A stretch of 64,000 bases of DNA, taken from contig NZ_JABMJK010000001.1 in assembly GCF_013376005.1 (NCBI RefSeq), positions 1 through 64,000 on the forward strand, written 5' to 3'. Below the pieces are notes generated by a model, which did no database searches, was not told the origin of the DNA, and worked only from the letters and a program-made list of their open reading frames with translations. Each line of letters begins with the position of its first letter. Positions within the stretch are counted from its first letter, which is position 1. Made by a program: the position numbers and the translations under genes. Positions 40,245 through 58,771 of the stretch are shown here, piece after piece. The stretch comes from Duganella sp. SG902 (lineage in GTDB: Bacteria; Pseudomonadota; Gammaproteobacteria; Burkholderiales; Burkholderiaceae_D).

Positions 40245-41393
40245 CTATGGCTTCCTTGAGGGAATCACTTCAAACAATAGCAATTGCGTCACCTCGTCCC
40301 GGCTGAAGTTGTCGTCCGAGATGAACACCAGGGTGTCATGACCGTTTGCCAACGGCGGCCCCCAGGCCATGCCTTCGATGTTGTCGAGCTTGGGCAGGCG
40401 CAGGCTGTCCAGATCGAGCACCAGGCGTTTGCGCGCCGCCACATAGCCGGCGTTTTGCAAGGCAGGCAGCCGCGCCACGTCGGTGGCCGCCGTCACATCC
40501 ATTTCGTACAAGCGAATGTGAAAACTGAACTCGCCGCCTGCGTTCTGGGCACCCGAGCGCTCGATGGCATACAGATGCCCTCCATCGATCGCCAGGATTT
40601 CCGACAGCCCGTTGTCAGCCAGCCGGCCTGGCGCCGGCGCGTGCGGGATCGGGTTCAGCGGATACGCATACTGTGCCAGCAAGGCGCCGTCGCGGTCGAA
40701 GCGGCTGATGCGGGCATGGGCGCCGGCCGTGATGGTGGGCGCCGCGCCGTCCTGGTACAGCGGTCCCTCCATCGCCAGCCAGAGCGAGCGGCCATCCGGG
40801 GCGAAGCTGAGTCCCTCGAACGCCAGGTTGTTGCGCACGCCGTATTCGCGCCGCGGCCATACGCGGAACATGTCTGGCGCCGGCAGCGTCCCGAGGTGGC
40901 GGCCATCGGCAGACGCGTGCCGCACAAAGGGCTGGAATCCAAGCTTCCGGTCGCCCTCACTGCCGTACCAGATGCTGTCGTCCAGCGGGTCGTAGCGTAT
41001 GGTTTCGATATCGGGCACCTCACCGCCGGCGGCGGCCACCGTGGCCAGGCCGGGATAGCGGCTGCCATCGGGCTGGCGGAAGAAGTGCACGCCGGTCAGC
41101 CGCACGCCGCGAAAGGCGTTTTCGTCGTAATCCAGCGCCGCCGTGTAAAACCGCGCCGGACTCAATTCGGAGCGATCATCGCTCTCCATGATCCACTGGC
41201 CGCTGCGCGGGCTGTAATCGATGCCGGACAGGCCGCCAACTACGGTGCCCTGGAATGGCAGGCGCCATGCCAGGCGCTGCTCGCCGATGAAGCGCAGGCT
41301 GGCCCCTACGGCATGCGGCCGCGCCGGCAGGTCTGCGCAACCGGCCAGCGCGATCGCGATCGCCGGCGCCAGCAGCCAGCGCCATCCCTTCAA
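40245..41393 (-). CDS. Phytase-like esterase domain lipoprotein
   Basis: The 382-residue protein has a lipobox (ALAGC, Cys19) and a beta-propeller of the esterase-like phytase family (GGLSGIDY, LAFEGLSFAPDGRSLWLAMEGPL, GLSEILAIDGGHLYAIER). Such proteins may hydrolyse phosphate esters in the periplasm, which would suit removal of phosphate from nucleotides before uptake; this is inference. The start is TTG at 41391-41393, overlapping the stop of the nucleoside hydrolase gene (TTGA), with GGAG upstream. It is the last gene of the purine-riboside operon. Confidence 0.82.
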   Translation of the reverse strand: MKGWRWLLAPAIAIALAGCADLPARPHAVGASLRFIGEQRLAWRLPFQGTVVGGLSGIDYSPRSGQWIMESDDRSELSPARFYTAALDYDENAFRGVRLTGVHFFRQPDGSRYPGLATVAAAGGEVPDIETIRYDPLDDSIWYGSEGDRKLGFQPFVRHASADGRHLGTLPAPDMFRVWPRREYGVRNNLAFEGLSFAPDGRSLWLAMEGPLYQDGAAPTITAGAHARISRFDRDGALLAQYAYPLNPIPHAPAPGRLADNGLSEILAIDGGHLYAIERSGAQNAGGEFSFHIRLYEMDVTAATDVARLPALQNAGYVAARKRLVLDLDSLRLPKLDNIEGMAWGPPLANGHDTLVFISDDNFSRDEVTQLLLFEVIPSRKP

Positions 41394-42304
41394 GGCAGGC
41401 TCCCGATCGCGCTCCGCACCAGCTCCAGCAAGGCGTCGTTGCGCACGGCCGTCATGGCCAGCGCGTTGGCCGCATGGGCATCGTCGATCTGCTCGCCGAA
41501 CCAGGCCAGCGTGTGGCCGGCGGTGACGCCCGGCCGCCAGTCAACCTCGAGATGGCAAGGCTCGCCGGTGAACAGGGTCTCGTCCAGCAGATAAGCCACC
41601 GGGCAGGCGTCGTGCAGCAACGGGTCGAGTTCCGCATAGGCTTGCAGCATGCCTGCGGCGGCACGGCCGCATACGCTGCCCAGCTGATTGAAGGACTCGA
41701 TCCACGCCGGGGTCATGATGGCGGAACTGGTGACGTCCAGCGGGAACAGCACGGTGTTTGCGCCGGCCGCCAGCACCATCTCGGCCGCCACCGGATCGGC
41801 GTAGAAATTGAATTCCGCCGCCGGGGTGATATTGCCCGGGAAGCGCAGCGCGCCGCCCATGACCAACAACCGGCGGGCGCGCCGCAGGATGCCCGGCGAC
41901 AGGCTCTCGGCCAGCGCCAGATTGGTCAGCGGCGCCGTCGCCACCAGTTCGATGCTGTGCGGCGGATGGGACAGCAGCAGTTCGATCAGGCGGTTGGCCG
42001 CGTGCCCTTCCTGCACCAGCGCGGCGTCGCCGACATCGACCCCGCCCAGGCCATCCTCGCCGTGCACCAGGTTGCAGCGCGCCTCGGCATAGCCCAGCGG
42101 CCGCGCCGCGCCGGCGTACACCGGCACCTCGCGCCGCCCGGCCAGGTCCATGATCTTGCGGCCGTTGACGGCGGTGGTGGCCACCGGGCGGTTGCCGGCC
42201 ACGGTGGTCACCGCCAGTATCCGCAGCGACGGACTACCGGCCGCCAGCAGCAGCGCCAGCGCGTCGTCGATGCCCGGATCGCAGTCGATAATGATTTGCT
42301 TCAT
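41390..42304 (-). CDS. Nucleoside hydrolase (IunH/RihA-like)
   Basis: The 304-residue protein opens with IIIDCDPGIDDALALLLA, the Asp cluster that binds Ca2+ and ribose in nucleoside hydrolases. It has no signal peptide, so it acts in the cytoplasm. It splits nucleosides to base and ribose. The ATG overlaps the ribokinase gene stop by 4 bases and starts where the similarity begins; 37 upstream codons in frame are rejected. The ribose product fits the adjacent kinases. Confidence 0.92.
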   Translation of the reverse strand: MKQIIIDCDPGIDDALALLLAAGSPSLRILAVTTVAGNRPVATTAVNGRKIMDLAGRREVPVYAGAARPLGYAEARCNLVHGEDGLGGVDVGDAALVQEGHAANRLIELLLSHPPHSIELVATAPLTNLALAESLSPGILRRARRLLVMGGALRFPGNITPAAEFNFYADPVAAEMVLAAGANTVLFPLDVTSSAIMTPAWIESFNQLGSVCGRAAAGMLQAYAELDPLLHDACPVAYLLDETLFTGEPCHLEVDWRPGVTAGHTLAWFGEQIDDAHAANALAMTAVRNDALLELVRSAIGSLP

Positions 42305-43251
42305 GCAGACTCCCCTTGCTGTGTTGATTGATGCGTGGCGTGCGCCTGCGACGCCATCAGCTGTTCGATTTGCTGGCGGTCCGGCTGGGCGGCCTGGGCG
42401 CCGCGCCGCGTGCACGCCAGCGCCGCCGCCGCGCTGGCGTAGAGCATGGCCCGCTCGCGCGGCTCTCCTTCTGCAATCGCGGCCGCGAACACGCCGGCAA
42501 AGGTGTCGCCGGCGCCGGTGGTGTCCACCACCTCCACGGCAAACGCGGGCGCCGTCAGCACCTTGCCGCCGGCGTCCGCCAGCAGCGCGCCTTTGGCGCC
42601 TAGCGTGACCAGCACCTCGTTGGCGTATCGCCCGGCCAGCGCGGCGGCCAGCGCCGCCGGTGTGGCGTCGGCCACGCCGGCACCCGAGGCCAGTTGCCGC
42701 AATTCGTCCTCGTTGACGATCAGGATATCGACTGCCTGCGGGTCCAGCCGCAGGCCCTGGTCCAGCGGCGACGCATTCATGATCACTTTGCAGCCTTGCG
42801 CACGTGCGCGCCGCGCCAGCGCCATGCTGGCGGCGACGTCGGTTTCCAGCTGCAGCAGCAAGGCGCCGCTGTCGCGCAGTTGCTGGTCCGAGAGCTGCGC
42901 CGCGCTGGCCGCCAGATTGGCGCCCGGCGCCACCACGATGGTGTTCTCGCCGTGCGCGTCGAGCACAATCAACGCCACGCCGGTGCTTTGCCCGGCTACG
43001 CTGGCAACGCCGCCGATATCGACGCCGGCGGCCACCAGTTGTTCCAACGCCGGCGCGGCGAAGGCATCGTCGCCCACCGCGCCCGCCATGCAGACCCCGG
43101 CGCCGAAACGGCGCGCGGCGTGGGCCTGGTTGGCGCCCTTGCCGCCGGGCGACAGCAACGACTCGCCGCCCAGCACCGTTTCGCCCGGCGCCGGCAGGCG
43201 CGGCGCGGCCACGCTGATATCAACGTTGATGGAGCCAAATACCGTAATCAC
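42301..43251 (-). CDS. rbsK: Ribokinase (PfkB family)
   Basis: The 316-residue protein has the ribokinase start GSINVDISV, the sugar site GGKGANQAHAARRFGA and the catalytic DTTGAGDTFAGVF with its Asp base. It phosphorylates ribose at O5. The start codon is GTG at 43249-43251, overlapping the stop of the upstream PfkB kinase gene. It receives ribose from the nucleoside hydrolase. Confidence 0.9.
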   Translation of the reverse strand: MITVFGSINVDISVAAPRLPAPGETVLGGESLLSPGGKGANQAHAARRFGAGVCMAGAVGDDAFAAPALEQLVAAGVDIGGVASVAGQSTGVALIVLDAHGENTIVVAPGANLAASAAQLSDQQLRDSGALLLQLETDVAASMALARRARAQGCKVIMNASPLDQGLRLDPQAVDILIVNEDELRQLASGAGVADATPAALAAALAGRYANEVLVTLGAKGALLADAGGKVLTAPAFAVEVVDTTGAGDTFAGVFAAAIAEGEPRERAMLYASAAAALACTRRGAQAAQPDRQQIEQLMASQAHATHQSTQQGESA

Positions 43252-44198
43252 TCGTCCCTCCCTTGATGGCGCGCCAGCACGCTTTCGACGGTGGCGCGAT
43301 CCGGCAGCGCGGTGCGCGCGCCCATCGCCGCCACGGTGCAGCTGGCGGCGGCGCAGGCGAAGGCCAGCGCCGCGCGCAATCGCGCTCCCTCCAGCCAGGC
43401 CGCTAGGAACGCGGCGTTGAAGCTGTCGCCGGCGCCGGCGGTGTCCAGCACCCGGGCCGGAAAGACCGCTTGCGCCGCCTGCTCGGCATCGGTCACCGCC
43501 ATCGCGCCGGCCGCCCCCAGGCTGACCACCACCACCTTGGGACCCAACGCCAGCAAGGCGCGCATGGCGTCGAACGACGGCGCGCAGCCGGCGCCGGCCT
43601 CAAAGCCGGACTGGTTGAAAAACACGATGTCGGAGCGCGACACTCGCTCGCGCATCGCCTCGCCATCGGGCGCCACCGCCCTTTCGAGGTCAATCGCCAC
43701 CAGCGTCCCCTGCGCGCGGGCGGTGGCGCTCAGCGTGTCAAACTGTTCCAGGTCATACGGCATGGCATATACCACGCGCGTCTCGGCCAGCGCCGCCTTC
43801 AGCTGGAGCGAGTCAAGCGGCGCGCTGTCCATCGGCTGATAGATGATGGATTTCTCGCCGCTGGGCGTCACGATCACGATGGCGGACGCCGACGCCGCGC
43901 CCTGTGTGCGCCGCAGATGGCTGGTGTCCACGCCGAACGCGGCGAACGAGTCCTGCAGCAACTGGCCCGGCGCATCGTCGCCGATGCCGCCGAAAACGCC
44001 GCTGGACAACCCCAGGCGCGCCACCGCGCACGCGACGTTGGCGGTGGTGCCGCCGGCCAGCATGCCCAGCGGCCGCCCCACGACTTTCTCACCGAGGGCG
44101 GGCGGCTCGCTGGCGGCAATGACGATATCGGCCACCGGATCGCCAAACGACAGCAATTGCCAGCGCCGCGCGCGTGCTTGCGAAATCGGTGTGCTCAT
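43248..44198 (-). CDS. PfkB-family sugar or nucleoside kinase
   Basis: The 316-residue protein has the PfkB signatures GGTTANVACAVARLG and DTAGAGDSFNAAF. It is distinct from the neighbouring ribokinase and may phosphorylate another ribosyl compound, a nucleoside or a pentose released by the operon. Its start overlaps the ADP-ribosylglycohydrolase stop (ATGA). The exact substrate cannot be read. Confidence 0.86.
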   Translation of the reverse strand: MSTPISQARARRWQLLSFGDPVADIVIAASEPPALGEKVVGRPLGMLAGGTTANVACAVARLGLSSGVFGGIGDDAPGQLLQDSFAAFGVDTSHLRRTQGAASASAIVIVTPSGEKSIIYQPMDSAPLDSLQLKAALAETRVVYAMPYDLEQFDTLSATARAQGTLVAIDLERAVAPDGEAMRERVSRSDIVFFNQSGFEAGAGCAPSFDAMRALLALGPKVVVVSLGAAGAMAVTDAEQAAQAVFPARVLDTAGAGDSFNAAFLAAWLEGARLRAALAFACAAASCTVAAMGARTALPDRATVESVLARHQGRDE

Positions 44199-45283
44199 CC
44201 TGCTTCCTCCTCGGTGGTGGCGTGCAGCGTCAACGCGGCCAGCCCGGCCGCCATCGCGTCCAGATCGAATTCCGCCGCGTTGACGCGCTTAAACTCGGAC
44301 AACATCGGCTGCGGCAACGCCGCCGTGCCGCGCAGGGCGCCAACGATGGCGCCGGCCATGGTGGCGATCGAATCGGTGTCGTTGCCGATCGAGGCGCTCA
44401 GGGCGATGGTGCGCAGCGGGTCGCCTTTGGCATACGCTACCACGCCCAGCGCCGCCGGCACCGATTCCGCCGCCAGCACCGAGTTGCCGACCTCCCGCTC
44501 CATGCGCCGCAGGAAGGCGTCGTCGCTGTGCGACTCGCGGGCGATGCGCAAGGCCATTTCCAACCGCGCCAGATAACTGGGCCCGGCCACCAGCCGCGCG
44601 TGACGGCGCGCCAGTTGCTCGCCCGTCCGCGCACCCTGCAGCGCCGCCGCCAGCACCGGTTCCAGATCGTCCGCCACCAGCGCCTGCGCGGTCGCCGCCG
44701 CCACCGAACAGGCGGCCGAGATGGCGACGTCGGTATCGTGCGACGGCAGGCAGGTGACCAGCGCGCAGCGGCAAGCCGCGTCGACCTGGCCGGGGTACAA
44801 CAGGCCAGCCGGCGCCACCCGCATGGCCGCGCCATTGGTGGTGCCCACCGTGGTCATCTTGCGGCGCGACTGGCCGATCACGCCCACCAGCGCGGTGTCG
44901 CTGCCTTCGCGCAGCGCCTTGACGATGCCGGCGGTGCTCGGCCCCATGAAACCGGCCTTGGGGCTGTGGGCGACCCAGTCCAGCAGGCAGCGCACCCACT
45001 GCTCCTGGTTCAATGCGCCGCCGGCGGCCAGCATGGCGCGCGCCAGGTAATACATCTGGCTGGCGTCGTCCGTGACTTCGCCGCGCCGGCCCTGGTTGGC
45101 GCCGGCGAAGGTGTCGTCCGGCGGATCGTCGAAGGCGGTCACCAGGCCGCCGTACTTGGCCGCGATTTCATCGATCGACCATTGTTCGGTAGGCGCGCCG
45201 AGGGCGTCGCCCATGCCGGCCAATGCCAGCGAGGCGTGGATGCGGTCTTGCAGTTGATCGCGATTGAGCGTGTCGAAATTCAC
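44195..45283 (-). CDS. ADP-ribosylglycohydrolase-family (DraG-like) enzyme
   Basis: The 362-residue all-helical protein has the metal-binding motifs of the family: GMGDALGAPTE (23-33), the TDD of VTDDASQ and GNDTDSIATMAGA near the C-terminus. Family members remove ADP-ribose from arginine or serine or split other N-ribosyl bonds using two Mg2+ ions. Here, in an operon with a nucleoside importer, hydrolase and kinases, a role in breaking down imported ribosides or ADP-ribose is more likely than reversing protein modification. The start is GTG at 45281-45283 with an AAGGA site. Confidence 0.88.
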   Translation of the reverse strand: MNFDTLNRDQLQDRIHASLALAGMGDALGAPTEQWSIDEIAAKYGGLVTAFDDPPDDTFAGANQGRRGEVTDDASQMYYLARAMLAAGGALNQEQWVRCLLDWVAHSPKAGFMGPSTAGIVKALREGSDTALVGVIGQSRRKMTTVGTTNGAAMRVAPAGLLYPGQVDAACRCALVTCLPSHDTDVAISAACSVAAATAQALVADDLEPVLAAALQGARTGEQLARRHARLVAGPSYLARLEMALRIARESHSDDAFLRRMEREVGNSVLAAESVPAALGVVAYAKGDPLRTIALSASIGNDTDSIATMAGAIVGALRGTAALPQPMLSEFKRVNAAEFDLDAMAAGLAALTLHATTEEEAG

Positions 45284-45296
45284 TTGTATCCTTTGT

Positions 45297-46274
45297 TCAG
45301 AAAGAGGTGGACTTGCGGCGCCGCCGGCCTGCCAGCATCAGCGCCAGTATCGTCACCAGCGGCGGCAACATGTAGATAATCTGGGTCGGCCAGTTCAACG
45401 CGCCGAGCCGGGTGGCCAGCACGCTGGCGGCGCCGAACAGCAGCGCGGCCGCCAGCACGCCGCGCGGCCGGCGCGCGCCAAGGAACACGGCGGCCAGCGC
45501 CAGGAAACCGCGGCCGGCGGTCATGTCGGCCTGGAACAGGGACAGGTAGCCCATGCTCAGGTAGATGCCGCCCAGCCCCGCCAGCGCGCCGCTCAGCAGC
45601 AGGGCCGCGTACTGCACGCGGCGCACCGGGATGCCGGCCGCCAGCGCGGCGGCGCGGTTCTCGCCCACCGCGCGCAGCCAGGCGCCGTGGCGGGTGCGCG
45701 TCAGCCAGAACGACAGCAGCGGCACCAGCGCGAAGGCGGCGATCAGCAGCACATGGTGGCCCTGGCCGCCCTCGCCGTTGATCAGCAACTGGGCCAGCGG
45801 CAAGCCGTCCAGGCCCGGCACGTGGAGCGACGGCAGCAGCGGCGTGTTGATGCCGGCGGTCGAGCCCTTGTCGCCGATCAGGGAAACCAGCAGGAACACC
45901 GTCAGCCCGCCGGCCAGCAGATTGATGGCGATGCCGCCGACGATCAGGTCCGCGCCCAGTTCGAGATGGAACACCGCCAGCAGCGCCGTCAGCAGCAGCG
46001 CCGCCAGCAGGCCGGCCGCGCACCCCAGCCAGGGATAGAGCCACGGCGCCAGCCCGGGGAACCAGCGTTCGCCGTAGAACGCGCCGATCACGCCGAAGAA
46101 GGCGGCGATCAGCATGGTGCCCTCCAGCGCCACGTTGATGCAGCCGGCCAGCTCGGACACCAGCCCGCCCAGCGCCGCCAGCAGGATCGGCGTGGCGGCG
46201 CGCAGCAGCGCGATCAACAGCAGGGCCGCGCCCATGCCGGCGAAGCCGCCGGCCGCGGTGAGATCGGCGCTCAT
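45297..46274 (-). CDS. Nucleoside ABC transporter permease (BMP/NupQ-type)
   Basis: The 325-residue inner-membrane protein has about eight hydrophobic segments, with ELAGCINVALEGTMLIAAF near residue 45 as in YufQ/NupC-type permeases. It pairs with the preceding permease to make the channel of a purine-nucleoside importer. The ATG overlaps the upstream permease stop; a longer frame upstream is rejected because it lies over that gene. Confidence 0.87.
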   Translation of the reverse strand: MSADLTAAGGFAGMGAALLLIALLRAATPILLAALGGLVSELAGCINVALEGTMLIAAFFGVIGAFYGERWFPGLAPWLYPWLGCAAGLLAALLLTALLAVFHLELGADLIVGGIAINLLAGGLTVFLLVSLIGDKGSTAGINTPLLPSLHVPGLDGLPLAQLLINGEGGQGHHVLLIAAFALVPLLSFWLTRTRHGAWLRAVGENRAAALAAGIPVRRVQYAALLLSGALAGLGGIYLSMGYLSLFQADMTAGRGFLALAAVFLGARRPRGVLAAALLFGAASVLATRLGALNWPTQIIYMLPPLVTILALMLAGRRRRKSTSF

Positions 46275-47365
46275 CGTGCACCTCCGGTCCAACGCGCCAG
46301 CCAGCCGGCCAGGCGCTGGGGCAGCAAGCGCTCCGCCACCACGAACAGGATGATCAGGGCCTGGATCACCAGCACCGTCTCCCGTGAGACGTCGGTGCTG
46401 CGCTCCATGGTCTGTGCGCCGGTGCGCAGCCAGGCGTAGAACAACGCCGCCCACGGCACCGCGCGCGGCTCGTTACGCGCGAGCAGCGCCACCAGCAGGC
46501 CGTCGTAGCCCAGGCCCGGCGTCAGGTCGACCGGCAGCCGCTTGAGCAGGCCATTGCTGATATGGAGCCCGGCCAGCGCGGCAAAGGCACCGCCGGCCGC
46601 CATCGACAGCGCCACCGCGCGGCCCACCGGCAGGCCGGCCTGCAACGCGAACGCCGGCGCCGCGCCGGTGACGCGGATCTCGTAACCGAGCGTGGTGCGC
46701 ATCAACAGCAGCGCGGCGCCGGCCACAGCCAGCGGCACGGCGAACAGCAGCGTGGTCACATTGGTGTGCTCCAGCAGCGTCGAGAACACGGCAGCGGGCG
46801 GCAGCAGCGGCGTGACCTGGTAGCCGGCGTGCGGATCGCACAGCCAGTCCGCCACCGCCAGGCGGTAGAACTGCAGCGCGATCAGATTGAGCATCAGGCT
46901 GGTGACCATTTCGTTGGCGCCAAAGCGCACCTTCAGCCAGCCCGGCACCAGGCCCCAGCCAAAGCCGGTCAGCATGGCGGCGCAGGCGGCGGCCGGCAGC
47001 AGCAGCCAGGCCGCCCCGCCCTGCCGCGGCCAATACAGGCTGACGGCGGCTGCGGCCAGCGCCGCCAGGAACATCTGGCCGTCCGCGCCCAGCGAGAACT
47101 GGCGCGCGCGGAACGGCAGCGCCACCGCCAGGCCAAGGAAGGTCAACGTGATGGCGTCTTCGATCACGGTACCGAAACGCACCATGCGGTGCAGCTGCCA
47201 GCCCCCGGATGGGCTCCAGCCAATGTCCGGCAAGGCGCCGGTCAACAGCACCAGATAGGCGCGCAGCGGTTCGCGGCTGACCAGCGCGGTGATGGCCAGG
47301 CCGGCCAGCAGCGCGGCAAACACGGCCAACGCCAGGCGCCAGCCGCGCGACAATTCAGGCGTCAT
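46271..47365 (-). CDS. Nucleoside ABC transporter permease (YufP-type)
   Basis: The 364-residue inner-membrane permease has about nine hydrophobic segments and the motif LGADGQMFLAALAAAA. It forms a heterodimer with the next permease. Its ATG overlaps the ATPase gene stop by 4 bases. Confidence 0.87.
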   Translation of the reverse strand: MTPELSRGWRLALAVFAALLAGLAITALVSREPLRAYLVLLTGALPDIGWSPSGGWQLHRMVRFGTVIEDAITLTFLGLAVALPFRARQFSLGADGQMFLAALAAAAVSLYWPRQGGAAWLLLPAAACAAMLTGFGWGLVPGWLKVRFGANEMVTSLMLNLIALQFYRLAVADWLCDPHAGYQVTPLLPPAAVFSTLLEHTNVTTLLFAVPLAVAGAALLLMRTTLGYEIRVTGAAPAFALQAGLPVGRAVALSMAAGGAFAALAGLHISNGLLKRLPVDLTPGLGYDGLLVALLARNEPRAVPWAALFYAWLRTGAQTMERSTDVSRETVLVIQALIILFVVAERLLPQRLAGWLARWTGGAR

Positions 47366-48954
47366 GCCGCCACCTCGCCGCTGAAGGGTGAGTCGAGCAG
47401 CGCGGCGGCGCCGGCCTGGCGCCGTGCGCCGGTCATGTATGCGCCCAGCTCCGCGGCGCTGGCGCCGCCGTTGAAGTGGCCGACGATCTCGCCCTGCGAC
47501 AGCACGGCGATGCGGTCCGACAGTTCCAGCACCTCGTCCAGATCGGAGGAGATCAGCAGCACCGCCGCGCCGCTGTCGCGCAGCTCGACCAGGTAGCGGC
47601 GCAAGGCCTGCGCCGCGCCCAGGTCGACGCCGCGCGTCGGCTGGCTGGCGATCAGGAAGCGCGGCGCGCCGTCCAGCTCCCGGCCCAATACGATCTTTTG
47701 CATATTCCCGCCGGACAGCGCGCCAATGGCCTGCTCCGGCCCGCGCGCGGCGACGCCGTAGCGCGCCATCAGGCGCCGCGCCATGTCCTGCGTGGCGCCG
47801 GCGTTCAGCCACCCCAAGCGCGACAGGGGCTGGCGATGGTAGGCGCCGGCGATGGCGTTGTCGGCGATGCTCATGTCGGCGGCGACGCCGTTGTGCAGGC
47901 GATCCTCGGGGATGGCCGCCAGCCCCGCCGCGCGCGCCGCGCGCACGCCGGCGCCGGTGACGACCTGGCCGTCCAGCAGCGCGCGGCCGTGATCGGGCGC
48001 GCGCAGACCGCCCAGCACATCGGCCAGCGCACCCTGGCCGTTTCCCTCGACACCGGCGATGCCGAGGATCTCCCCGGCCGCTATCTCGATCGAAATGTCG
48101 TTCAACTGCGCCCTGCCGTCCGGCCGGCGCAGGCCGATGCCCCGCGCGCTGAACAGCGCCGGCAGGCCCAGTCCGCGCTTGCTGGAGTGTTCCACCTGCA
48201 GCGGCGCCAGCGCGCGGCCGACGATCATTTCGGTCAGGCGCGCGGCGTCGACCGCGCGCGCCTCGTCATGGCCGGTCACGCGCCCGCCGCGCAACACGGT
48301 AAATCGGTCCGACACGTCCAGCACCTCGCTTAATTTGTGGGTGATCAGCAGTACCGTCAGGCCCTGCGCGGTCAGCGCGCGCAAGGCGGTGAACAGCGCC
48401 TGCGCCTCGCTCGGGGTCAGCACCGCCGTCGGCTCGTCCAGCAGTATCAGGCTGGCGCCGCGATACAGTGTCTTGAGGATTTCAACCCGCTGTTGCTCGC
48501 CCAGCGACAGGCCGGCCACCAGCGCGCGCGGATCGACCTCCAGGCCGAAACGCCGCGACACCGCGCGCACCCGCTCGATCGCGGCGCGCTGATCCAGCAG
48601 GCCGAAACGCGACGGTTCGCTGCCCAGCACCACGTTCTGGGCCACCGTGAACGACGGCAGCAACTGCAGGTGCTGCGGCACCAGCCCGATGCCGGCGGCG
48701 ATCGCCTCGGCGGGCGTGCGCAGCTGGCGCACCTCGCCGTCCAGCAGGATGCTGCCGTCGCTGGGCTGTTCCAGCCCGTAGAGCATTTTCATCACGGTCG
48801 ATTTGCCGGCGCCGTTCTCGCCCACCAGCGCGTGGATCTCGCCGCGCCGCACCTGCAGGTTGACGCCATCGCTGGCCAGCGTGCCATTCGGGTAGCGTTT
48901 GGACACCGCGCGCAATTCAACGCGCAGGGTCTCGTGTTCGGGGTTCATCATCAT
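47362..48954 (-). CDS. Nucleoside ABC transporter ATP-binding protein
   Basis: The 530-residue protein carries two ATPase modules. The first has Walker A GENGAGKST, signature LSLGEQQRVEILK and Walker B LILLDEP. The second has the altered P-loop GVEGNGQGAL and LSGGNMQKIVLGREL, as usual in BMP-type systems. It drives nucleoside import. Three ATGs in a row lie at 48946-48954; the first is closest to the GAGG site at 48966-48969. Confidence 0.92.
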   Translation of the reverse strand: MMMNPEHETLRVELRAVSKRYPNGTLASDGVNLQVRRGEIHALVGENGAGKSTVMKMLYGLEQPSDGSILLDGEVRQLRTPAEAIAAGIGLVPQHLQLLPSFTVAQNVVLGSEPSRFGLLDQRAAIERVRAVSRRFGLEVDPRALVAGLSLGEQQRVEILKTLYRGASLILLDEPTAVLTPSEAQALFTALRALTAQGLTVLLITHKLSEVLDVSDRFTVLRGGRVTGHDEARAVDAARLTEMIVGRALAPLQVEHSSKRGLGLPALFSARGIGLRRPDGRAQLNDISIEIAAGEILGIAGVEGNGQGALADVLGGLRAPDHGRALLDGQVVTGAGVRAARAAGLAAIPEDRLHNGVAADMSIADNAIAGAYHRQPLSRLGWLNAGATQDMARRLMARYGVAARGPEQAIGALSGGNMQKIVLGRELDGAPRFLIASQPTRGVDLGAAQALRRYLVELRDSGAAVLLISSDLDEVLELSDRIAVLSQGEIVGHFNGGASAAELGAYMTGARRQAGAAALLDSPFSGEVAA

Positions 48955-48967
48955 TTTTTTGGGGTCC

Positions 48968-50062
48968 TCACATCTGCCGGGCGAATGCGCCGGGTACCTG
49001 TACGCGTCCCTGCACGATGGCCTCGGAGAGGGCCTGCAGCTCGCCACGCAAGGCCGGCGGCGCCGCGTCCAGCACCTGCGAATGCGGCGCCAGGCTAATC
49101 CCTCCTTCGGCCAGTCCGAGCGACTCGGCGCGGCCGTAGGGCAGCCTACCATCGAGCTGCAGCCCGACCGCGCGCAGCAGGCCGGCGTCCACTTGCTTCA
49201 GCACCGAGGTGACGATGCCGGCCGCGCGTTGGGGATTGCTGGCGCGGTAAAGCTGGTATTGGTCCATGTCCACCCCGATGGCGTAACGCCTGGCTTCCGC
49301 CGCCGCCTCGGTGACGCCCTGGCCGGTGGCGCCGGCGGCGTGGAAGATCAGGCCCGCGCCCTGGCCGAATTGGGCCTTGGCGATCTCCTTGCCGGCGGCC
49401 GGGTCGGAGAAAGCGTTGGCGTACTGGCTCATGATCCTCACGCCCGGCACGGCGGCGCGGGCGCCGGCGCCGAAGCCGATGATGAAGTCTTCGATGACTG
49501 GAAACTGCATGCCGCCCACCACGCCCAGTGCGCTGCCGGCCGGCGCCCCCGGCAGCCCCTGCTGCATCAGGCGCGCGGCCAGGTAGCCGGCCAGGTAGGC
49601 GCCTTCGTTCTGGCGGAACAGCATGGAGTAGACGTTGTCGCAGCGGCAGGCCTTGTAGTCGACCGCCGCGTCGAAGACGATGAAGCGCACCGCCGGAAAC
49701 TGCATGGCCAGCTTCTGCACATACGGCACCATGGTGAAGGTGCCCGCGATGACCACGTCATAGTCGCCGCTGTCGGCCAGGTCGCTGAGCGCGGCCTCCC
49801 AGCGGGTCGGATCGACGCCGCCCTCGATCACGCGGGTGCGCACCGGCAGCTGCGCTGCCACCAGCGCCATGCCATGCGCGGCCGAATCAAACATCGACTT
49901 GTCGCCACGGGTGCCGTTGATGAACAGGGCCACCCGCAGGCGCGCACCGGCGTCGCGCGGTTCGTAGATGTGCCGCCCCGCCCATGCCAGCGCATACAGC
50001 GCCAGCACCACGACGCACAGCAGGCCTGTCTGCCGCAGCAAATGAATACCGGTTTGCTTCAC
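48968..50062 (-). CDS. BMP-family nucleoside-binding protein, membrane-anchored
   Basis: The 364-residue protein has the BMP fold (RVALFINGTRGDKSMFDSA, GGMQFPVIEDFIIGFGAGA). BMP-family proteins bind purine nucleosides. The N-terminal hydrophobic helix (residues 10-28) lacks a standard lipobox, so it is either a membrane anchor or an uncleaved signal. The start is GTG at 50060-50062 with a GAGGA site. It follows the TonB receptor gene by 68 bases and leads the importer genes. Confidence 0.9.
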   Translation of the reverse strand: MKQTGIHLLRQTGLLCVVVLALYALAWAGRHIYEPRDAGARLRVALFINGTRGDKSMFDSAAHGMALVAAQLPVRTRVIEGGVDPTRWEAALSDLADSGDYDVVIAGTFTMVPYVQKLAMQFPAVRFIVFDAAVDYKACRCDNVYSMLFRQNEGAYLAGYLAARLMQQGLPGAPAGSALGVVGGMQFPVIEDFIIGFGAGARAAVPGVRIMSQYANAFSDPAAGKEIAKAQFGQGAGLIFHAAGATGQGVTEAAAEARRYAIGVDMDQYQLYRASNPQRAAGIVTSVLKQVDAGLLRAVGLQLDGRLPYGRAESLGLAEGGISLAPHSQVLDAAPPALRGELQALSEAIVQGRVQVPGAFARQM

Positions 50063-50130: not shown

Positions 50131-52602
50131 TCAGAAGTGGGTACGCAGGGTGAAGAACAGCGTGCGCGGGCTGCCGAGGAAGTAGCGGCCCGACGTCAGC
50201 GGATTGGAGGTGGTCAGCTCCGCACCCACGCCGCCCAGATAGCGCTTGTCGAACAGATTGTCGACGTTGAACGACAGCTCCACGTTGCGGAAGTAGCCGA
50301 AGAACCGGCCCTGCGGACGATAGCTGAGCGACAGCCCCACCAGCGTGTAGGCCGGCATGTACTCGCGCGGATAGCTCGCTGGACCGCCAGTGACCACCGT
50401 ATTGGGCACCACGCCATAGGTGCCGGCGGCTTCGCCGACATATTTGGCGTTGAGGGCGGCGCGCCAGGTGTCGGCCGGCTTCCATACCGCCTCCGCGAAG
50501 GCTGTGCGGCGCGGCGCGCCCAGCACCGGATCGCCGGCCTTGATGCCCTCGGCGACGGTGTCGGCGACATAGTGCGCGTCGTTGTAGGCGGCGTTGGCAT
50601 ACAGCTCGTAGGTGTCGCCGGTGACGCGGCCGGTCAGCTCCAGGCCGCGCGAGCTGATGCCGCCCTGGTTCTGGAAGGTGGTCTTGGCATCGCGCGAGAA
50701 GATGTCGCCGTTCGGATTGCCGTTCTGGATCGAGATGCGGTCGCGGTAGTCGATCGAGTACGCGGTCAGGGCCAGACCGTAGCGGTCGCGCACCCAGCGC
50801 AGCCCCATGTCCTTGTTGATCGAGGTCTCGGGCTTGATGCCGTTCTTGGAGTCGACCGCCGCCGTGCCCTCGAACACGCTGTCCGGAATGGCGCTGAAGT
50901 TTTTCGAACCGCTGGCGAAGACTTCCCACTCGTCGCTGATGCGGTACAGCGCGGCCAGTTTGGGCAGCAGCTTGGACGACACCTTGAGCGAGCGCGTGCC
51001 CGCGAACTCCACCGGTGAACGGTAGGATTCGCTGAACCGCTGGAAGGTGGCGCCGACGTCCAGTTCCACGCGGTCGTTCAGCAGCGTCATTTTGTCCTGG
51101 GCGTAGGCCATCGCCGTGTTGGAGGCGTAGTGGCGGTCCTGGGTGACCGAGTACAGCGCATTGTCGGCGTAGGCGCCACTGACCTTCGGATCGGTCACGT
51201 CAAACCAGTTGCGCACCTTTTCGCGGGTGATGTGCTCATACCAGCCGCCCAGGCGCACGCGGTGCACCTCGCCGAGGGTCATCGCCACCTCGGCCAGCGT
51301 GCCTTTGCGGTCGATCGCGTTGTCGCTGCGGCGGGTGGTGGCCTCGCGCGCGCCCCAGGCGTTGACCGGATTCATCGCGTACTTGGCCGCCGCCGGGCAG
51401 CCAGCGGATTTCAGCGATGCCGCGCTGGCGCCGGCCGGGAAGACCACCGCCGCCACCGGCACCAGCGCGCCGCTGGCGGTGCGCTGGTACTGGTTCTTGT
51501 AGCACTCCTGCACCACGGCGGTTGGCGCGCCGCCCGGGGCGACCACGCTGTACTGCTGGCCGTTGCTCGGCAGCTGCTCGTAAGGGACGTAGAACCAGCC
51601 GTTGCCATTCTGCTTGTGCAGATAGGGCTTGAGCGTGAACTTGCCGGTTTCGCCGAAACGCTGGGTCCAGTCGATATGCGCCAGCGTGTCCTCGCTGTTG
51701 ATGCCGCGCGTGCCGCGATAGTTTTGGTCGATGTTCGGATCGCCGGTCCAGCGATCGGTCAGCGCGTCGGTGTTCGGGTTGCCTTCAAAGGTCGCCTTGT
51801 AGAACGGCGCCGCCACGGCGCGCAGCGCCACCGCATCGTAGTCGTTGTCGGCAAAGTTGTTGTAGCTGATGGTGGCGCGCAGGCTGGAACCGGCGCCCAG
51901 GTCCTGCAGCACGCGCAGGTCGGCGTGCTGGCGGTGATTGCGGCCCGACTGGTCACCTGGCCAGGTGCGCACGTATTCATGCGAATAATCGAGATACGCG
52001 CTGGTGCCCAGCGCCGACTTGCCGGTGTCCACGCGCACGAACTCGCGTTGATAACCGAATTTGCCGGCCGAGAGTTCGACATCGCCGCCGCGCTCCTTGG
52101 CCGGATCGCGCGTGCGGTAGTCGATGTAGCCGCCCAGCGCCTGGTTCGACGGCGTGCCCAGGTCGCCGGCGGTTTGCGAGGCGTCGATCCGCACCAGGTT
52201 GGCGGGTTCCAGCAGGCGGTTCGGCATGGTGCCGCCGTTCGACAGCGTCGAGCCGTTCGGAATGCCGTCCACCGAGATGCCGATTTGTTCCTTGTTCAAG
52301 CCACGCATGGTCAGGCGCATCGAGAAGCTGCCGGTCAGGGCGTCGCTGGAGCTGACCTGCAGGCCCGGCACCCGCGCCAGCATCTTGAGCGGATCGAGGC
52401 CCGCCGGCTGCTGCTGGATGGTTTCCTTGTCGATCACGCTGTTGGCGCGGGCCTCGCCCTTGCCCATGATATGGCCGGTGACTTCCACCACGGTCGGCGC
52501 CTTGTCGTCGGCGTTGACCGCGGCTTCCTGGGCGGAGGCCGGAGCGCTCCACTGCAGCATGGCGGCCGATCCGGCAGCCAGCAATCCGATTTTTCGATAC
52601 AC
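50131..52602 (-). CDS. TonB-dependent receptor of the purine-riboside locus
   Basis: The 823-residue protein has a signal peptide (cleaved after PASAQ, about residue 24), a TonB plug (VVEVTGHIMGKGEARANSV, LDPLKMLARVPGLQV, GLNKEQIGISVDGIP) and a barrel ending in FFTLRTHF. It is first in the ten-gene nucleoside operon, so nucleosides, nucleotides or related ribosides are likely ligands; a known substrate cannot be named from the sequence. I chose the GTG at 52600-52602, where the signal peptide begins, with AGGGGG upstream. Confidence 0.87.
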   Translation of the reverse strand: MYRKIGLLAAGSAAMLQWSAPASAQEAAVNADDKAPTVVEVTGHIMGKGEARANSVIDKETIQQQPAGLDPLKMLARVPGLQVSSSDALTGSFSMRLTMRGLNKEQIGISVDGIPNGSTLSNGGTMPNRLLEPANLVRIDASQTAGDLGTPSNQALGGYIDYRTRDPAKERGGDVELSAGKFGYQREFVRVDTGKSALGTSAYLDYSHEYVRTWPGDQSGRNHRQHADLRVLQDLGAGSSLRATISYNNFADNDYDAVALRAVAAPFYKATFEGNPNTDALTDRWTGDPNIDQNYRGTRGINSEDTLAHIDWTQRFGETGKFTLKPYLHKQNGNGWFYVPYEQLPSNGQQYSVVAPGGAPTAVVQECYKNQYQRTASGALVPVAAVVFPAGASAASLKSAGCPAAAKYAMNPVNAWGAREATTRRSDNAIDRKGTLAEVAMTLGEVHRVRLGGWYEHITREKVRNWFDVTDPKVSGAYADNALYSVTQDRHYASNTAMAYAQDKMTLLNDRVELDVGATFQRFSESYRSPVEFAGTRSLKVSSKLLPKLAALYRISDEWEVFASGSKNFSAIPDSVFEGTAAVDSKNGIKPETSINKDMGLRWVRDRYGLALTAYSIDYRDRISIQNGNPNGDIFSRDAKTTFQNQGGISSRGLELTGRVTGDTYELYANAAYNDAHYVADTVAEGIKAGDPVLGAPRRTAFAEAVWKPADTWRAALNAKYVGEAAGTYGVVPNTVVTGGPASYPREYMPAYTLVGLSLSYRPQGRFFGYFRNVELSFNVDNLFDKRYLGGVGAELTTSNPLTSGRYFLGSPRTLFFTLRTHF

Positions 52603-52641
52603 GATACCCCCTGAGCTATGGATAAATGCTGAATAAATTCT

Positions 52642-52745
52642 GGTTCTGATCCTAATGGAGCCGTCATTCCCGCGAAGGCGGGAATGACGGCGCATCGGTT
52701 TGCGGTCAAAAAAGCCTTAACTTAGCGGCATTAGGTTCTGATCCT
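52642..52745. repeat. REP palindrome flanked by 12-base direct repeats
   Basis: GGTTCTGATCCT occurs at 52642-52653 and 52734-52745. Between them is CCGTCATTCCCGC-GAAG-GCGGGAATGACGG (52661-52690), a perfect 13-base-arm hairpin. CCTAATG (52651-52657) and CATTAGG (52729-52735) form an outer inverted pair. The hairpin family resembles the arms of the REPIN copies at 29260 and 31912. Confidence 0.75.
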
Positions 52746-52795: not shown

Positions 52796-52824
52796 ATTGT
52801 ATAGTGGTACGGACCACTTATCAA
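52796..52824 (-). promoter_or_regulatory. Promoter of the TonB/BMP operon with embedded GntR operator
   Basis: On the minus strand TTGATA (52819-52824) and TACAAT (52796-52801) are 17 bases apart. The palindrome AGTGGTACGGACCACT (52803-52818) fills the spacer almost exactly, the classic position for repression. The core matches the sites near 58002 and 58088. Confidence 0.75.
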
Positions 52825-52859
52825 CGACAATCGCGAAATATTCCATTAAACACACAACA

Positions 52860-52869
52860 GGTACGAACC
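52860..52869 (+). promoter_or_regulatory. GntR-like half-degenerate site before gntR
   Basis: GGTACGAACC differs from the palindrome GGTACGTACC at one base and lies 4 bases upstream of a TATAAT box (52874-52879). It could give autoregulation of gntR. No good -35 is present. Confidence 0.5.
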
Positions 52870-52949
52870 AAGCTATAATTTCCATAGCCGCGCGGCACAC
52901 CGTGATAGGATGTCGCGCAACCAAACACCGTCATATACAGGTGAACAGC

Positions 52950-53696
52950 ATGACCGCCTTTACAAATTCTTCCCCTATTTATCGCCAGCTGGCGGACATG
53001 TTGCGCCAGCAGATCGAATCCGGCCACATCGCCCCCAACGACGCCATCCCGGCCGAACGCGACCTGGCCGCCTCGTATGAAGTGAGCCGCGACACCGTCC
53101 GCAAGGCCATCAAACTGCTGGAAGAACAAGGGGTGCTGTACAGCGACCATGGTCGCGGCACGTTCGCCGCGCCGGCGGCGGTGCGCAAGATGTCGCGCTT
53201 CCTCGACAGCTTCACCGAGGACACCATCAAGCGCGGCGGCGTGCCGGGCCAAAAGATCCTGGTGATGGAACAAGTCATTCCCAGCATGGCCATCGCCAGC
53301 CTGCTCAACATCGACAGCGAGACGCCCATCCTGCACCTGAAACGCCTGCGCCTGATGGACGGCGCGCCGATCGGCATCCAGGATTCGCATGTCAGGCTGC
53401 CGCCCGGCGAGCAACTGACGCGCAAGGAACTGGAACGTACCGGTTCGCTGTACCGGCTGCTGGTGGAGAAATTCGGCATCGAGCCGTCGGAAAGCCTTGA
53501 GAGCATCGGCGCCATACCGGCCGCCAGCGAGGAAGTGGAGCTGCTGAACATCCCGGCCGGGACGCCGATACTGGTGTGCGAACGCATCATGCTGTCGAGC
53601 CGTCGCGAACCGGTCGAATACTGCGAGATGAAATACCTGCCGTCCTACCGCTACAAGACGCGCATCAGCAAATGGAGCATCGGCCAGCCGGCGTGA
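52950..53696 (+). CDS. GntR-family regulator, HutC subfamily
   Basis: The 248-residue protein has an N-terminal GntR winged helix (about 8-75, PIYRQLADMLRQQI, ERDLAASYEVSRDTVRKAIKLLEEQG) and a UTRA ligand-binding domain (about 95-240, with LHLKRLRLMDGAPI). HutC-type regulators usually repress until a sugar phosphate or related ligand binds. Palindromes of the matching form sit in the promoters of the neighbouring operons. The ATG at 52950 has an AGGTGA site; 51 upstream in-frame codons cross the promoter and are rejected. Confidence 0.92.
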   Translation: MTAFTNSSPIYRQLADMLRQQIESGHIAPNDAIPAERDLAASYEVSRDTVRKAIKLLEEQGVLYSDHGRGTFAAPAAVRKMSRFLDSFTEDTIKRGGVPGQKILVMEQVIPSMAIASLLNIDSETPILHLKRLRLMDGAPIGIQDSHVRLPPGEQLTRKELERTGSLYRLLVEKFGIEPSESLESIGAIPAASEEVELLNIPAGTPILVCERIMLSSRREPVEYCEMKYLPSYRYKTRISKWSIGQPA

Positions 53697-53702: not shown

Positions 53703-54641
53703 TTATCTGCACGCCGACTCGATCAGCAGCTCCAGTTGCGCCGTGTCCCCGCAAAACTGACGTATGCCCTCGGACAGCTTGAGCCGCGCCATGGCGTCGC
53801 CGTTGAGCATGAGACGGAACGACTCCTCGTCCACCGGCCTGCGGGCGATGCGGTCCGTACCGGCCGCACCGCGATCAAGCTTGCGTGTCAACGGCGCGTC
53901 GGAATCGTGCAATTGACGCAGCAGGCCCGGACTCACCGTCAGCAAATCGCATCCCGCCAGCGCGGCGATTTGCTCGGTGCTGCGGAAGCTGGCCGCCATG
54001 ATTTCGGTACGGAACCCGTGCGTGACGTAGTAATCGAAGATGCGGCGCACCGACAATACGCCGGGATCGTCATCGGCGGCGTAGGTCTGGCCGGTGTGCT
54101 GCCGGTACCAGTCGGTGATACGGCCGACGAACGGCGAAATCAGCCTCACCCCGGCCTCGGCGCAGGCGGCCGCCTGCGGCAGGCCAAACACCAGCGTCAT
54201 ATTGCAATGGATGCCCTCGCGCTCCAGTATCTCGGCGGCGCGTATGCCTTCCCAGGTCGCGGCGATCTTGATCAGCACCCGTTCGCGCCCGATGCCGGCC
54301 GCCTCGTACAGGGCGATCAGGGCGTGGCCCTTGGCCACCGTGGCGGCGGTGTCGAACGAGAGGCGCGCATCCACCTCGGTGGACACCCGCCCGGATACGA
54401 TGCCCAGGATCTCGGCGCCGAAAGCCACCAGCAAATGATCCGCCAGCACGGCACTGGCCAGGCCCGGATGCTGGCCCACCACCCGTTCCAGCAAGGGCCG
54501 GTAGGCGGTCGCCTGCGCAGCCTTGAGTATCAGCGACGGATTGGTGGTCGCGTCGCGCGGGGCATATTCCCGCATCGACAGGAAGTCGCCGGTATCGGCG
54601 ACCACCACGCTGTGTTGTTTAAGCTGGTCGAGCTGATTCAT
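53703..54641 (-). CDS. tal: Transaldolase
   Basis: The 312-residue TIM barrel has the Schiff-base Lys125 ([11 protein letters not shown]) and Asp18 (VVADTGDF), and [13 protein letters not shown] as in TalB. It moves a dihydroxyacetone unit between pentose-phosphate sugars, so it can carry ribose-derived carbon into glycolysis. It is the third gene of the operon headed by the second TonB receptor and converges with gntR, 6 bases apart. Confidence 0.93.
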
Positions 54642-54654
54642 GCTGTTTTTCCCT

Positions 54655-57941
<3,287 letters not shown>

Positions 57942-57992
57942 ACCCACCCCTCGTTGTCGTCAAATTGATCGTCGTGTTCACCACCTGAGAAA

Positions 57993-58021
57993 ACTATATA
58001 TTGGTACGTACCATTTTTCAA
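57993..58021 (-). promoter_or_regulatory. Promoter of the second TonB operon with GntR operator
   Basis: On the minus strand TTGAAA (58016-58021) and TATAGT (57993-57998) are spaced by 17 bases. The perfect 12-base palindrome TGGTACGTACCA (58002-58013) lies in the spacer, as in the first TonB promoter. Confidence 0.75.
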
Positions 58022-58059
58022 CTAGTTTGTTTGAAGTTGATATTTTTAAGTACAAACGG

Positions 58060-58097
58060 TTGATTTCCGTGGTTTTGAAAATATAATGGTACGTACC
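58060..58097 (+). promoter_or_regulatory. Promoter of the TrpF-like gene with GntR operator
   Basis: TTGATT (58060-58065) and TATAAT (58082-58087) are 16 bases apart. The palindrome GGTACGTACC (58088-58097) follows the -10 box directly and would cover the transcription start. Confidence 0.72.
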
Positions 58098-58117
58098 TTT
58101 ACTTAACGAAAACCACC

Positions 58118-58771
58118 ATGATGACACTTTCACCCCCACCATTCTTTGTCACCTTCACCGGCGTCGACGACAGCACCCTGCTGCCTGGCATGCTGGCGCT
58201 GTCCGCGCGCTATCCTGTTGAATGGGGCGTGTTGCTGGATGCGGCGCAAGAGGGAGCGCCGCTGTTTCCGCTGGAGGCGGCGCGCAGGGCATTTCAGGGA
58301 GCGCCATTGCGGCTGTCCGCGCACATTTGCGGCGCGGCGGCGCGGGCCATCGTGGAAGGCCGCGATCCCGGCCTGAATTTAAGCGGCTATGGACGCATCC
58401 AGGTGAACCACAGCCGGTCGGGCAGCAGCGAGCGCGAAATCCGCAACAGCCAATTGTTCGCCGCCCGCAGCGGGGTGCGCGCGGCGCTGCAGTGTCAGGG
58501 GGAGTTTCCGGATGATGTCAGGGTGGACTGGCTGTACGACGTTTCGTTCGGCACCGGCCAGCAGCCCGGCGCATGGCCGGCGATCGGGGCGAGCCAGGCG
58601 TTTTGCGGCTATTCAGGCGGCCTGAATCCGGACAACGTGGCCAGTGTGCTGGCGCGCCTGCCGCTGACGGCAAACACCGCGTACTGGATCGACATGGAAT
58701 CCGGCGTCCGCACCGGGAACCGCTTCGATCTGGACAAATGCGAAGCGGTGTGCAGGGCGGTCTTCGGCTAA
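58118..58771 (+). CDS. TrpF-like TIM-barrel protein of unknown function
   Basis: The 217-residue protein shows TrpF (phosphoribosylanthranilate isomerase) traits: Asp141 before a glycine-rich loop (YDVSFGTGQQP), GGLNPDNV (167-174) and DMESGVR (192-198), the phosphate-binding strands. The catalytic Cys near the N-terminus of TrpF is absent (FVTFTGVDD). It is much unlike a housekeeping TrpF and stands under a GntR operator in the riboside locus. It may isomerise or cleave a ribosyl or ribosyl-phosphate compound. No ribosome site is obvious before the double ATG at 58118. Confidence 0.7.
   Translation: MMTLSPPPFFVTFTGVDDSTLLPGMLALSARYPVEWGVLLDAAQEGAPLFPLEAARRAFQGAPLRLSAHICGAAARAIVEGRDPGLNLSGYGRIQVNHSRSGSSEREIRNSQLFAARSGVRAALQCQGEFPDDVRVDWLYDVSFGTGQQPGAWPAIGASQAFCGYSGGLNPDNVASVLARLPLTANTAYWIDMESGVRTGNRFDLDKCEAVCRAVFG

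Follow-up and report, generated by a model that had tools for sequence, protein, structure and literature searches.

A predicted GntR/UTRA-controlled regulon in Duganella sp. SG902 joins probable nucleoside salvage genes to a YegUVW-type module, TonB-dependent receptors and a TrpF-like protein

Gene content of the locus

The analysed DNA (hereafter the window) is a 64,000-nucleotide stretch of Duganella sp. SG902 (assembly GCF_013376005.1, contig NZ_JABMJK010000001.1, positions 1 to 64,000). Within it, a ten-gene operon, a second unit with three genes, the gene of a GntR/UTRA regulator and a TrpF-like gene share palindromic operators (Table 1). An earlier sequence-only reading of the window, made by a model, had described these components; all were recovered with Pfam and NCBIfam profiles, the TrpF-like gene through a weak match to the phosphoribosylanthranilate isomerase (PRAI) family. 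From their gene families, operators and distribution, it is probable that they form a regulon, repressed by the GntR/UTRA protein, for importing purine ribonucleosides, and probably nucleotides too, as sources of carbon and nitrogen.

Gene families were assigned by these profiles and solved relatives by searches of the PDB, all from sequence; signal peptides and the lipobox were judged by eye. The operon lies on the minus strand (52695–40245), and all ten genes have a Pfam match. From the TonB-dependent receptor TBDT1, the order is BMP-family binding protein, ATPase, permease 1, permease 2, ADP-ribosylglycohydrolase-family enzyme, PfkB2, PfkB1, nucleoside hydrolase and phytase-like protein. 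With the start codons chosen in this analysis, neighbouring genes share 4 bases in six cases (47365/47362, 46274/46271, 44198/44195, 43251/43248, 42304/42301 and 41393/41390), as in a coupled operon. Relatives of TBDT1 with 75%–76% identity occur in five Duganella loci, adjoining the same regulator. A REP-like inverted repeat, TCATTCCCGCGAAGGCGGGAATGA, was seen by eye at 52665–52690, where the listed TBDT1 reading frame begins, suggesting that the true start lies further downstream, near 52602.

The importer set is complete (a BMP receptor, a two-domain ABC ATPase and two permeases) and points to nucleoside transport, as the closest solved structure of the BMP protein is 2fqw (TmpC; E 2e-32), which we take to be PnrA. 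Relatives of permease 2 are 62%–65% identical in loci L030–L032, and the open reading frame (ORF) overlapping this gene (45280–46281) had no Pfam match. The nucleoside hydrolase matched 6ba0 among solved structures (E 7e-53) and resembles inosine-uridine (IU)-type enzymes, its best solved relative being cytidine/uridine-specific. No solved relative of the phytase-like protein was found at E 0.01. In the second unit, the best solved relatives of the deaminase are 3ou8 and 3pao, the match to 3ou8 spanning residues 11–324 of 345. Both the PDB and NCBIfam label such proteins 'adenosine deaminase'; 3ou8/3pao are presumably the adenine deaminase Pa0148. The receptor of this unit, TBDT2, has relatives with 75%–76% identity in four Duganella loci, and genes related to the regulator were found in 20 other loci.

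Table 1. Genes and operators of the regulon, in window coordinates
Feature	Position	Strand	Evidence or remark
Phytase-like (PF13449) probable lipoprotein	40245..41393	-	E 4e-78; LAGC by eye
Nucleoside hydrolase (IU_nuc_hydro), no leader	41390..42304	-	PF01156 E 1e-78; start MKQIIIDCDPGIDD, start codon checked
PfkB1, probable ribokinase	42301..43251	-	GGKGANQ present; TIGR02152 251 bits, below cut-off 299.65
PfkB2 kinase	43248..44198	-	PfkB E 7e-48; GGTTANVA not GGKGANQ
ADP-ribosylglycohydrolase-family enzyme (YegU-like)	44195..45283	-	PF03747 E 9e-52
ABC permease 2	45297..46274 (within ORF 45297-46454)	-	BPD_transp_2 E 1e-32
ABC permease 1	46271..47365 (within ORF 46271-47812)	-	BPD_transp_2 E 3e-32
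ABC ATPase, two ABC_tran stretches	47362..48954 (within ORF 47362-49152)	-	ABC_tran E 7e-46
BMP-family (PnrA-like) substrate-binding protein	48968..50062	-	Pfam Bmp E 1e-50
TBDT1, TonB-dependent receptor, first gene of operon	50131..52695	-	Pfam barrel E 4e-36 and plug
Operator TGGTACGGACCA	52805-52816		Inside spacer of predicted TBDT1 promoter
Weaker operator AGGTACGAACCA	52859-52870		10/12; upstream of regulator gene
GntR/UTRA regulator	52950..53696	+	UTRA E 2e-28, GntR E 1e-20
Transaldolase	53703..54641	-	TIGR00874 418.5 bits, above cut-off 396.2
Adenine deaminase, Pa0148-like	54655..55692	-	3ou8 E 7e-124; NF006850 548 bits, above cut-off 419
TBDT2, TonB-dependent receptor, second minus-strand unit with deaminase and transaldolase	55689..57947	-	Barrel E 4e-35, plug E 5e-16
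Operator TGGTACGTACCA	58002-58013		Inside spacer of predicted TBDT2 promoter
Operator TGGTACGTACCT	58087-58098		Begins at last -10 base of predicted TrpF-like promoter
TrpF-like protein, uncharacterised family	58118..58771	+	Weak PRAI profile, fold match, own operator

Operators and promoters

Matching palindromes in the promoters, noted in the sequence-only reading, were located as four sites similar in sequence to TGGTACGTACCA, all within the two divergent promoter regions. A scan for sigma-70-like promoters between 52500 and 58300 found three (1.5 expected by chance), each overlapping an operator: in two promoters the operator lies in the spacer, and in the third it begins at the final base of the -10 element. 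This layout is the one expected of repressor control. Having its own operator, the TrpF-like gene belongs to the regulon.

The exact sequence TGGTACGNACCA occurs in three places in the 6.8-Mb genome, two of them in this region; the third (C8:130952) falls within a long open frame. Sites with at least 10/12 bases numbered five in the window stretch, one of which (53431) falls within the gene of the regulator; five shuffles gave a mean of 0.0. Across the whole genome, matches with up to two mismatches (610/609) were barely commoner than those of the reversed control (561/545); weak matches therefore carry no meaning, and only close ones count. At this stricter level (at least 11/12 bases), TGGTACGTACCA was present in all 21 loci with an orthologous GntR regulator (56 sites in 398 kb) and in none of 49 comparison loci, namely 15 whose context is CNT/LacI or similar (228 kb) and 34 distant TrpF-like loci (569 kb). 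These groups leave out L041 and L032/L085, whose contigs end before any regulator gene. The comparison much strengthened the case for a regulon under GntR/UTRA control, as predicted from the sequences.

Related loci and the swap of transport and cleavage

When the TrpF-like alignment was used to scan the named genome collection, 68 loci emerged, for which all calls of presence and absence are bounded by fetched flanks of up to 10 kb. A nucleoside context (one or more of nucleoside hydrolase, PfkB, AzgA, CNT and BMP-ABC in the flanks) was found at 33/68 loci, in Duganella, Collimonas, Pseudomonas gingeri, Xylophilus, Rhizobium, Pleomorphomonas, Caulobacter, Novosphingobium, Steroidobacter, Porticoccus and Woeseia, among others. 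The 6-kb contig of L049 showed only a LacI regulator. L085 is the same 6,007-base contig as L032 and was counted once among distinct loci; there, the operon itself holds the TrpF-like gene, with PfkB2 on one side and the glycohydrolase on the other. Genes of the set were found together again and again, in Oxalobacteraceae, Rhizobium, Pseudomonas and Caulobacter as well as other groups. As a side observation, L055 (1835–9851) and L056 carry, beside the GntR and TrpF-like genes, amidohydrolase, cytidine-deaminase-like and adenine-deaminase-like genes and a LacI regulator, a larger nucleobase set.

Three kinds of loci were distinguished by their transporter: AzgA type (14), CNT type (12) and BMP-ABC type (10 distinct: the window, L030, L031, L032, L050, L051, L052 and L054–L056). 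The AzgA-type permease belongs to the Xan_ur_permease family (checked with Pfam in L035 and L046, the remainder by clustering), and in L035, the locus tested, its solved relatives are the adenine/guanine permeases AZG1 and AZG2 (E 2e-50). The nucleoside hydrolase of AzgA loci has a leader in all 11 readable N-termini, L045 among them, as judged by eye, and the ribokinase motif GGKGANQ was found in none of the 14. In the CNT loci, the Pfam transporter family was checked in 6/12, and a regulator of the LacI cluster is present in 9/12. By eye, the hydrolase has no leader in any of the 18 readable BMP-ABC and CNT loci. L073, with no transporter in view, stayed outside the leader count; a short hydrophobic stretch precedes its hydrolase motif. 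In the fetched flanks, the ADP-ribosylglycohydrolase-family gene is present in 9/10 BMP-ABC loci (the copy of L056 is only 38% identical, and none is in view in L055), in 0/14 AzgA loci and in 0/12 CNT loci.

The swap is seen within one genus. The Duganella loci L036, L037, L038 and L040 retain both receptors (75%–76% identity), the regulator and the phytase-like and TrpF-like genes, with the adenine deaminase seen in three of the four, while AzgA and an exported hydrolase replace the importer, the glycohydrolase and the cytosolic hydrolase. Because receptors and regulator are kept while the inner step changes, the cargo at the outer membrane is probably the same, and the site of cleavage differs. 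Among the ligands considered, a purine nucleoside would fit this swap better than the others. Nature's exchange of 'cleave outside, import the base' for 'import the nucleoside, cleave inside' offers a clean genetic test of receptor cargo.

YegU-like enzyme and PfkB kinases

The TDD and DTDS motifs of the ADP-ribosylglycohydrolase-family enzyme align with those of ARH3 and are invariant in four sequences. TDD and DTDS/T are the metal-binding motifs of the ARH/DraG family. The enzyme scored far below the NCBIfam cut-offs for DraG (45 of 337) and Tri1 (32 of 490), and it is 32% identical to Escherichia coli YegU. Among described proteins it most resembles YegU, whose gene stands beside that of a putative nucleoside transporter.

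YegU-like matches (E ≤ 1e-30) were found in 24/398 genomes of the phylum, including that of SG902. Within ca. 1.5 kb, the other 23 loci have a PfkB neighbour in 19 cases and a GntR/UTRA neighbour in 20, and two of the four loci without a close PfkB gene show one in a wider stretch. Transporters vary: 10/23 have a YegT-like protein, L129 a substrate-binding-protein-type ABC importer, and L132 and L133 NCS1-type permeases. With these neighbours recurring and the transporters differing, the regulator, the glycohydrolase and the kinase make up a module that is paired with one transporter or another.

The two PfkB kinases are of different types. PfkB1 carries GGKGANQ, and in the alignment PfkB2 has GGTTANVA in its place. 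The latter motif type occurs in 22/38 loci and is absent from the CNT loci; apart from L032 and L041, which are cut off, all of the 22 have a GntR gene. Against the pseudouridine kinase profile, PfkB2 scored 22 bits (cut-off 540).

The TrpF-like family

The TrpF-like protein, of an uncharacterised family, is the most novel component of the regulon. It scored 18.7 bits against Pfam PRAI (E 0.0015), below the cut-off of 22.7, and a profile of 40 sequences gave five matches in the PDB at E ≤ 1, all of them PRAI and weak (best E 0.013). Its AlphaFold2 model is confident (pLDDT 95.1), and Foldseek ranked two archaeal PRAI structures first and second (E 6e-6 and 2e-5). Positions 135–208, with the C-terminal loops and D141, align with PRAI 5lhf. 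PRAI enzymes are barrels with C-terminal phosphate loops and an Asp after strand 6, features that the TrpF-like protein shares as judged from its model, this alignment and the fold matches. In TrpF, a catalytic Cys closes strand 1. In the TrpF-like protein, the conserved Thr14 stands at the end of strand 1 (10–14), as placed by eye outside the tool alignments. With 23 columns invariant in 40 diverse members, the family is conserved and enzyme-like.

A role in tryptophan synthesis was rejected as improbable: a strong TrpF match lies elsewhere in all 15 genomes examined, and the additional weak match seen in four of these genomes is apparently the TrpF-like gene. A role as a replacement ribose-5-phosphate isomerase was likewise not supported, with RpiA present in 14/15 genomes, the exception being G902, from which L056 comes; the search covered RpiA but not RpiB, and the protein may be a redundant isomerase copy. 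Two RpiA copies each were noted in G026, G129 and G898 (the genome of L047), unlike in the other 12 genomes.

Distant members of the family occur in four phage records (LR745206, LR756501, LR756503 and PP438406), of which LR756501 and LR756503 have equal length and an equal match. Some of the distant loci (L067–L103 without L073, L077 and L085) have prophage-like surroundings by eye. Neighbours there include a radical-SAM protein (L067, 9126–9995), a DNA methyltransferase (L093, 9018–9968) and DUF5131 (cluster of L081; in L070, 8769–10004 matches PHROG 2045 and the PADLOC candidates PDC-M41B/M30B).

One proposal gives the family a new enzymatic role in the breakdown of ribosides: PfkB2 would phosphorylate the 5' position of an imported N-riboside, after which the TrpF-like protein would open or isomerise the resulting N-(5'-phosphoribosyl) compound, much as TrpF treats phosphoribosyl-anthranilate; the YegU-like enzyme would hydrolyse such bonds, and the phage members would catalyse a related nucleotide reaction. 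This idea is speculative and, on balance, doubtful; if true, it would add a route to the pentose phosphates distinct from the nucleoside hydrolase and phosphorylase routes.

Predicted pathway and alternative substrates

The families and order of the genes, the conserved operators, the co-occurrence across loci and the swap are direct observations. A nucleoside-cleaving enzyme, a pentose kinase and a nucleoside-type transporter, as judged by sequence, are joined here under one regulator. On this basis, the two TonB receptors would carry nucleosides or nucleotides across the outer membrane, the phytase-like lipoprotein would strip phosphate where present, and the PnrA-like importer would deliver the intact nucleoside to the cytosol, where the nucleoside hydrolase would cleave it. 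PfkB1 would yield ribose 5-phosphate, with the transaldolase helping to feed the pentose phosphate pathway, and the adenine deaminase would convert adenine to hypoxanthine. PfkB2 and the YegU-like enzyme might constitute a second kinase/glycohydrolase branch, PsuK/PsuG-like, for N-ribosides poorly handled by the hydrolase, and the TrpF-like protein might act on a phosphorylated ribosyl intermediate. The regulator would occupy TGGTACGTACCA in the promoters and be released by an imported riboside or its phosphate. All of these catalytic activities, substrates and effectors are predictions. The sequence-only reading had proposed a GntR-controlled TonB-to-cytosol system for purine ribosides; the PnrA-like BMP protein, hydrolase, deaminase, ribokinase motif, AzgA/CNT swaps and comparative regulon all argue for it.

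Several points weigh against purine nucleosides as the substrate or against a single regulon with this function. The operon is rare: matches to its ADP-ribosylglycohydrolase-family gene (E ≤ 1e-20) were found in 4/145 sampled genomes of the family, that of SG902 included, and the operon in 0/7 other genomes of the genus examined. Within the order, 2/399 genomes, again counting its own, have such a match at 1e-40, and likewise 2/399 have a TrpF-like match at 1e-8. The related loci are not independent (five from Duganella, four from Collimonas and three from Rhizobium), and 34/68 TrpF-like loci show no nucleoside gene in the fetched flanks. As the hydrolase's relatives are pyrimidine-specific or inosine-uridine enzymes, purine specificity rests on the neighbours. 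The usual ligands of TonB receptors are larger or scarcer. AzgA loci should admit the base only, yet they keep PfkB2 and the TrpF-like gene, requiring a source of substrate elsewhere. Finally, G026 has the operon with no TrpF-like match, so the protein is dispensable for the operon. Given the puzzles of the AzgA loci and of G026, the functions assigned here to the TrpF-like protein, to PfkB2 and to the YegU-like enzyme should be read as proposals rather than findings.

Other substrates were weighed as well. An unusual N-riboside, such as a modified RNA nucleoside, an alpha-riboside like alpha-ribazole or a cytokinin riboside, could be the true cargo, with the ordinary nucleoside genes merely clearing products. 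Two distinct N-glycosidase families in one operon, a PfkB2 without the ribokinase motif and TrpF-like loops that align with PRAI all suit this, given that the substrate of TrpF is an N-(5'-phosphoribosyl) compound, that ARH enzymes act on alpha-linkages and that TonB receptors usually serve scarce ligands. However, the relatives encode transporters of the AzgA, CNT and BMP types along with adenine-deaminase-like proteins, which indicates common purines, and the scans named no modification-specific enzyme, so we regard this cargo as unlikely. The sequence-only reading had suggested that the cargo is perhaps ADP-ribose, NAD fragments or modified nucleosides, and it listed ribosylated arginine among the compounds for growth tests. 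For ADP-ribose or NAD, the receptors would import NAD or ADP-ribose, the phytase-like protein would cut the pyrophosphate, the YegU-like enzyme would remove ADP-ribosyl groups, and the deaminase would handle the adenine; the glycohydrolase keeps both metal-binding motifs, and the presence of receptors hints at something bigger than a nucleoside. As stated, the claim for ADP-ribose, NAD fragments or ribosyl-arginine is not supported: among the three transporter kinds, the glycohydrolase gene was seen in the fetched flanks of BMP-ABC loci only, its nearest described kin adjoins a putative nucleoside transporter, and scans of the regulon proteins identified no Nudix, macro-domain or nicotinamide family. 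Such scavenging therefore seems quite improbable.

The resemblance to yegTUV raises a further option, a system for ADP-glucose and glycogen. PMC10819704 describes YegW (GgaR) as a repressor with yegTUV as its single target and proposes ADP-glucose as the effector, and the window proteins are 32% (YegU), 23% (YegV, for PfkB2) and 26% (YegW) identical to their counterparts. The same paper gives yegTUV no clear function. No glycogen gene was named in the scans of the regulon, and it is hard to see what the hydrolase, the ribokinase, the deaminase and the PnrA-like importer would do in the use of ADP-glucose, making this option very remote. That the genes are chance neighbours with no common function is the least credible of all; their rarity in genus and family would allow it, but the shared operators and the repeated co-occurrence across genera contradict it. 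Uptake of purine ribonucleosides is thus the explanation that we prefer, and it places yegTUV-type genes and a conserved TrpF-like family in a concrete, assayable pathway.

Genes flanking the regulon

Directly adjoining the TrpF-like gene is an AMP nucleosidase gene (58782–60287; TIGR01717, 647 bits). It was left out of the regulon, as no site with at least 10/12 bases was found in 58100–60500; L062 and L077 also carry an AMP-nucleosidase-like gene. On the other side, just downstream of the phytase-like gene, lies a third TonB receptor, TBDT3 (37379–40099; TIGR01782 type, 608 bits). It was not counted in the operon, there being no site of at least 10/12 in 40001–40245. The ORF 60244–62874 was rejected as a gene, having no Pfam match and reading like a shadow ORF, and a gene starting near 60424 on the plus strand reads by eye like an adenylation-domain protein.

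Comparison with known systems

No description of the full gene set was found among the literature matches listed (titles and starts of abstracts, with subscription journals mostly uncovered), and among these matches there was likewise none of nucleoside use through dedicated TonB receptors. The LacI and GntR regulon literature, in its available parts, held nothing on this system, and the available part of PMC6365646 was not relevant to it. The sequence-only reading had known of no described system with this set; this holds for the set as a whole among the matches listed, but yegTUV/yegW had already been described, without a clear function (PMC10819704).

The regulon can be compared with several known systems. 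Like E. coli yegTUV/yegW, it combines a GntR-family repressor, an ADP_ribosyl_GH protein and a PfkB kinase, and the E. coli set stands beside a putative nucleoside transporter. It differs in having a BMP-ABC importer in place of the major facilitator superfamily (MFS) symporter YegT, at protein identities of 23%–32%. No YegT-type MFS symporter is encoded in the regulon, and 13/23 YegU-like loci also have no YegT match in their fetched flanks. Conversely, the K-12 yeg region, as viewed, has no gene for a TonB receptor, nucleoside hydrolase, phytase-like protein, TrpF-like protein, adenine deaminase or transaldolase. The importer resembles the BMP-type nucleoside ABC importers, such as PnrA of Treponema, in its binding-protein family and its set of BMP protein, ATPase and two permeases. 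NupNOPQ and BmpA-NupABC are further importers of this type. What sets the importer of the regulon apart is its link with a catabolic operon and with TonB receptors.

For the enzymes, the pairing of IU_nuc_hydro with a PfkB kinase that has the ribokinase motif recalls rihABC-rbsK salvage, to which the regulon adds outer-membrane receptors, a second kinase and the YegU-like and TrpF-like proteins. The PsuK-PsuG pseudouridine pathway, in which a PfkB kinase is followed by a glycosidase acting on the riboside 5'-phosphate, may be a parallel for the second branch, although the glycosidase of the regulon is from another family. The TrpF-like protein shares its best fold matches and its aligned C-terminal loops with TrpF, from which it is set apart by its score below the Pfam PRAI cut-off and by the separate strong TrpF in every genome examined. 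As far as its sequences tell, the regulon is nucleoside salvage joined to a YegUVW-type module and to TonB receptors.

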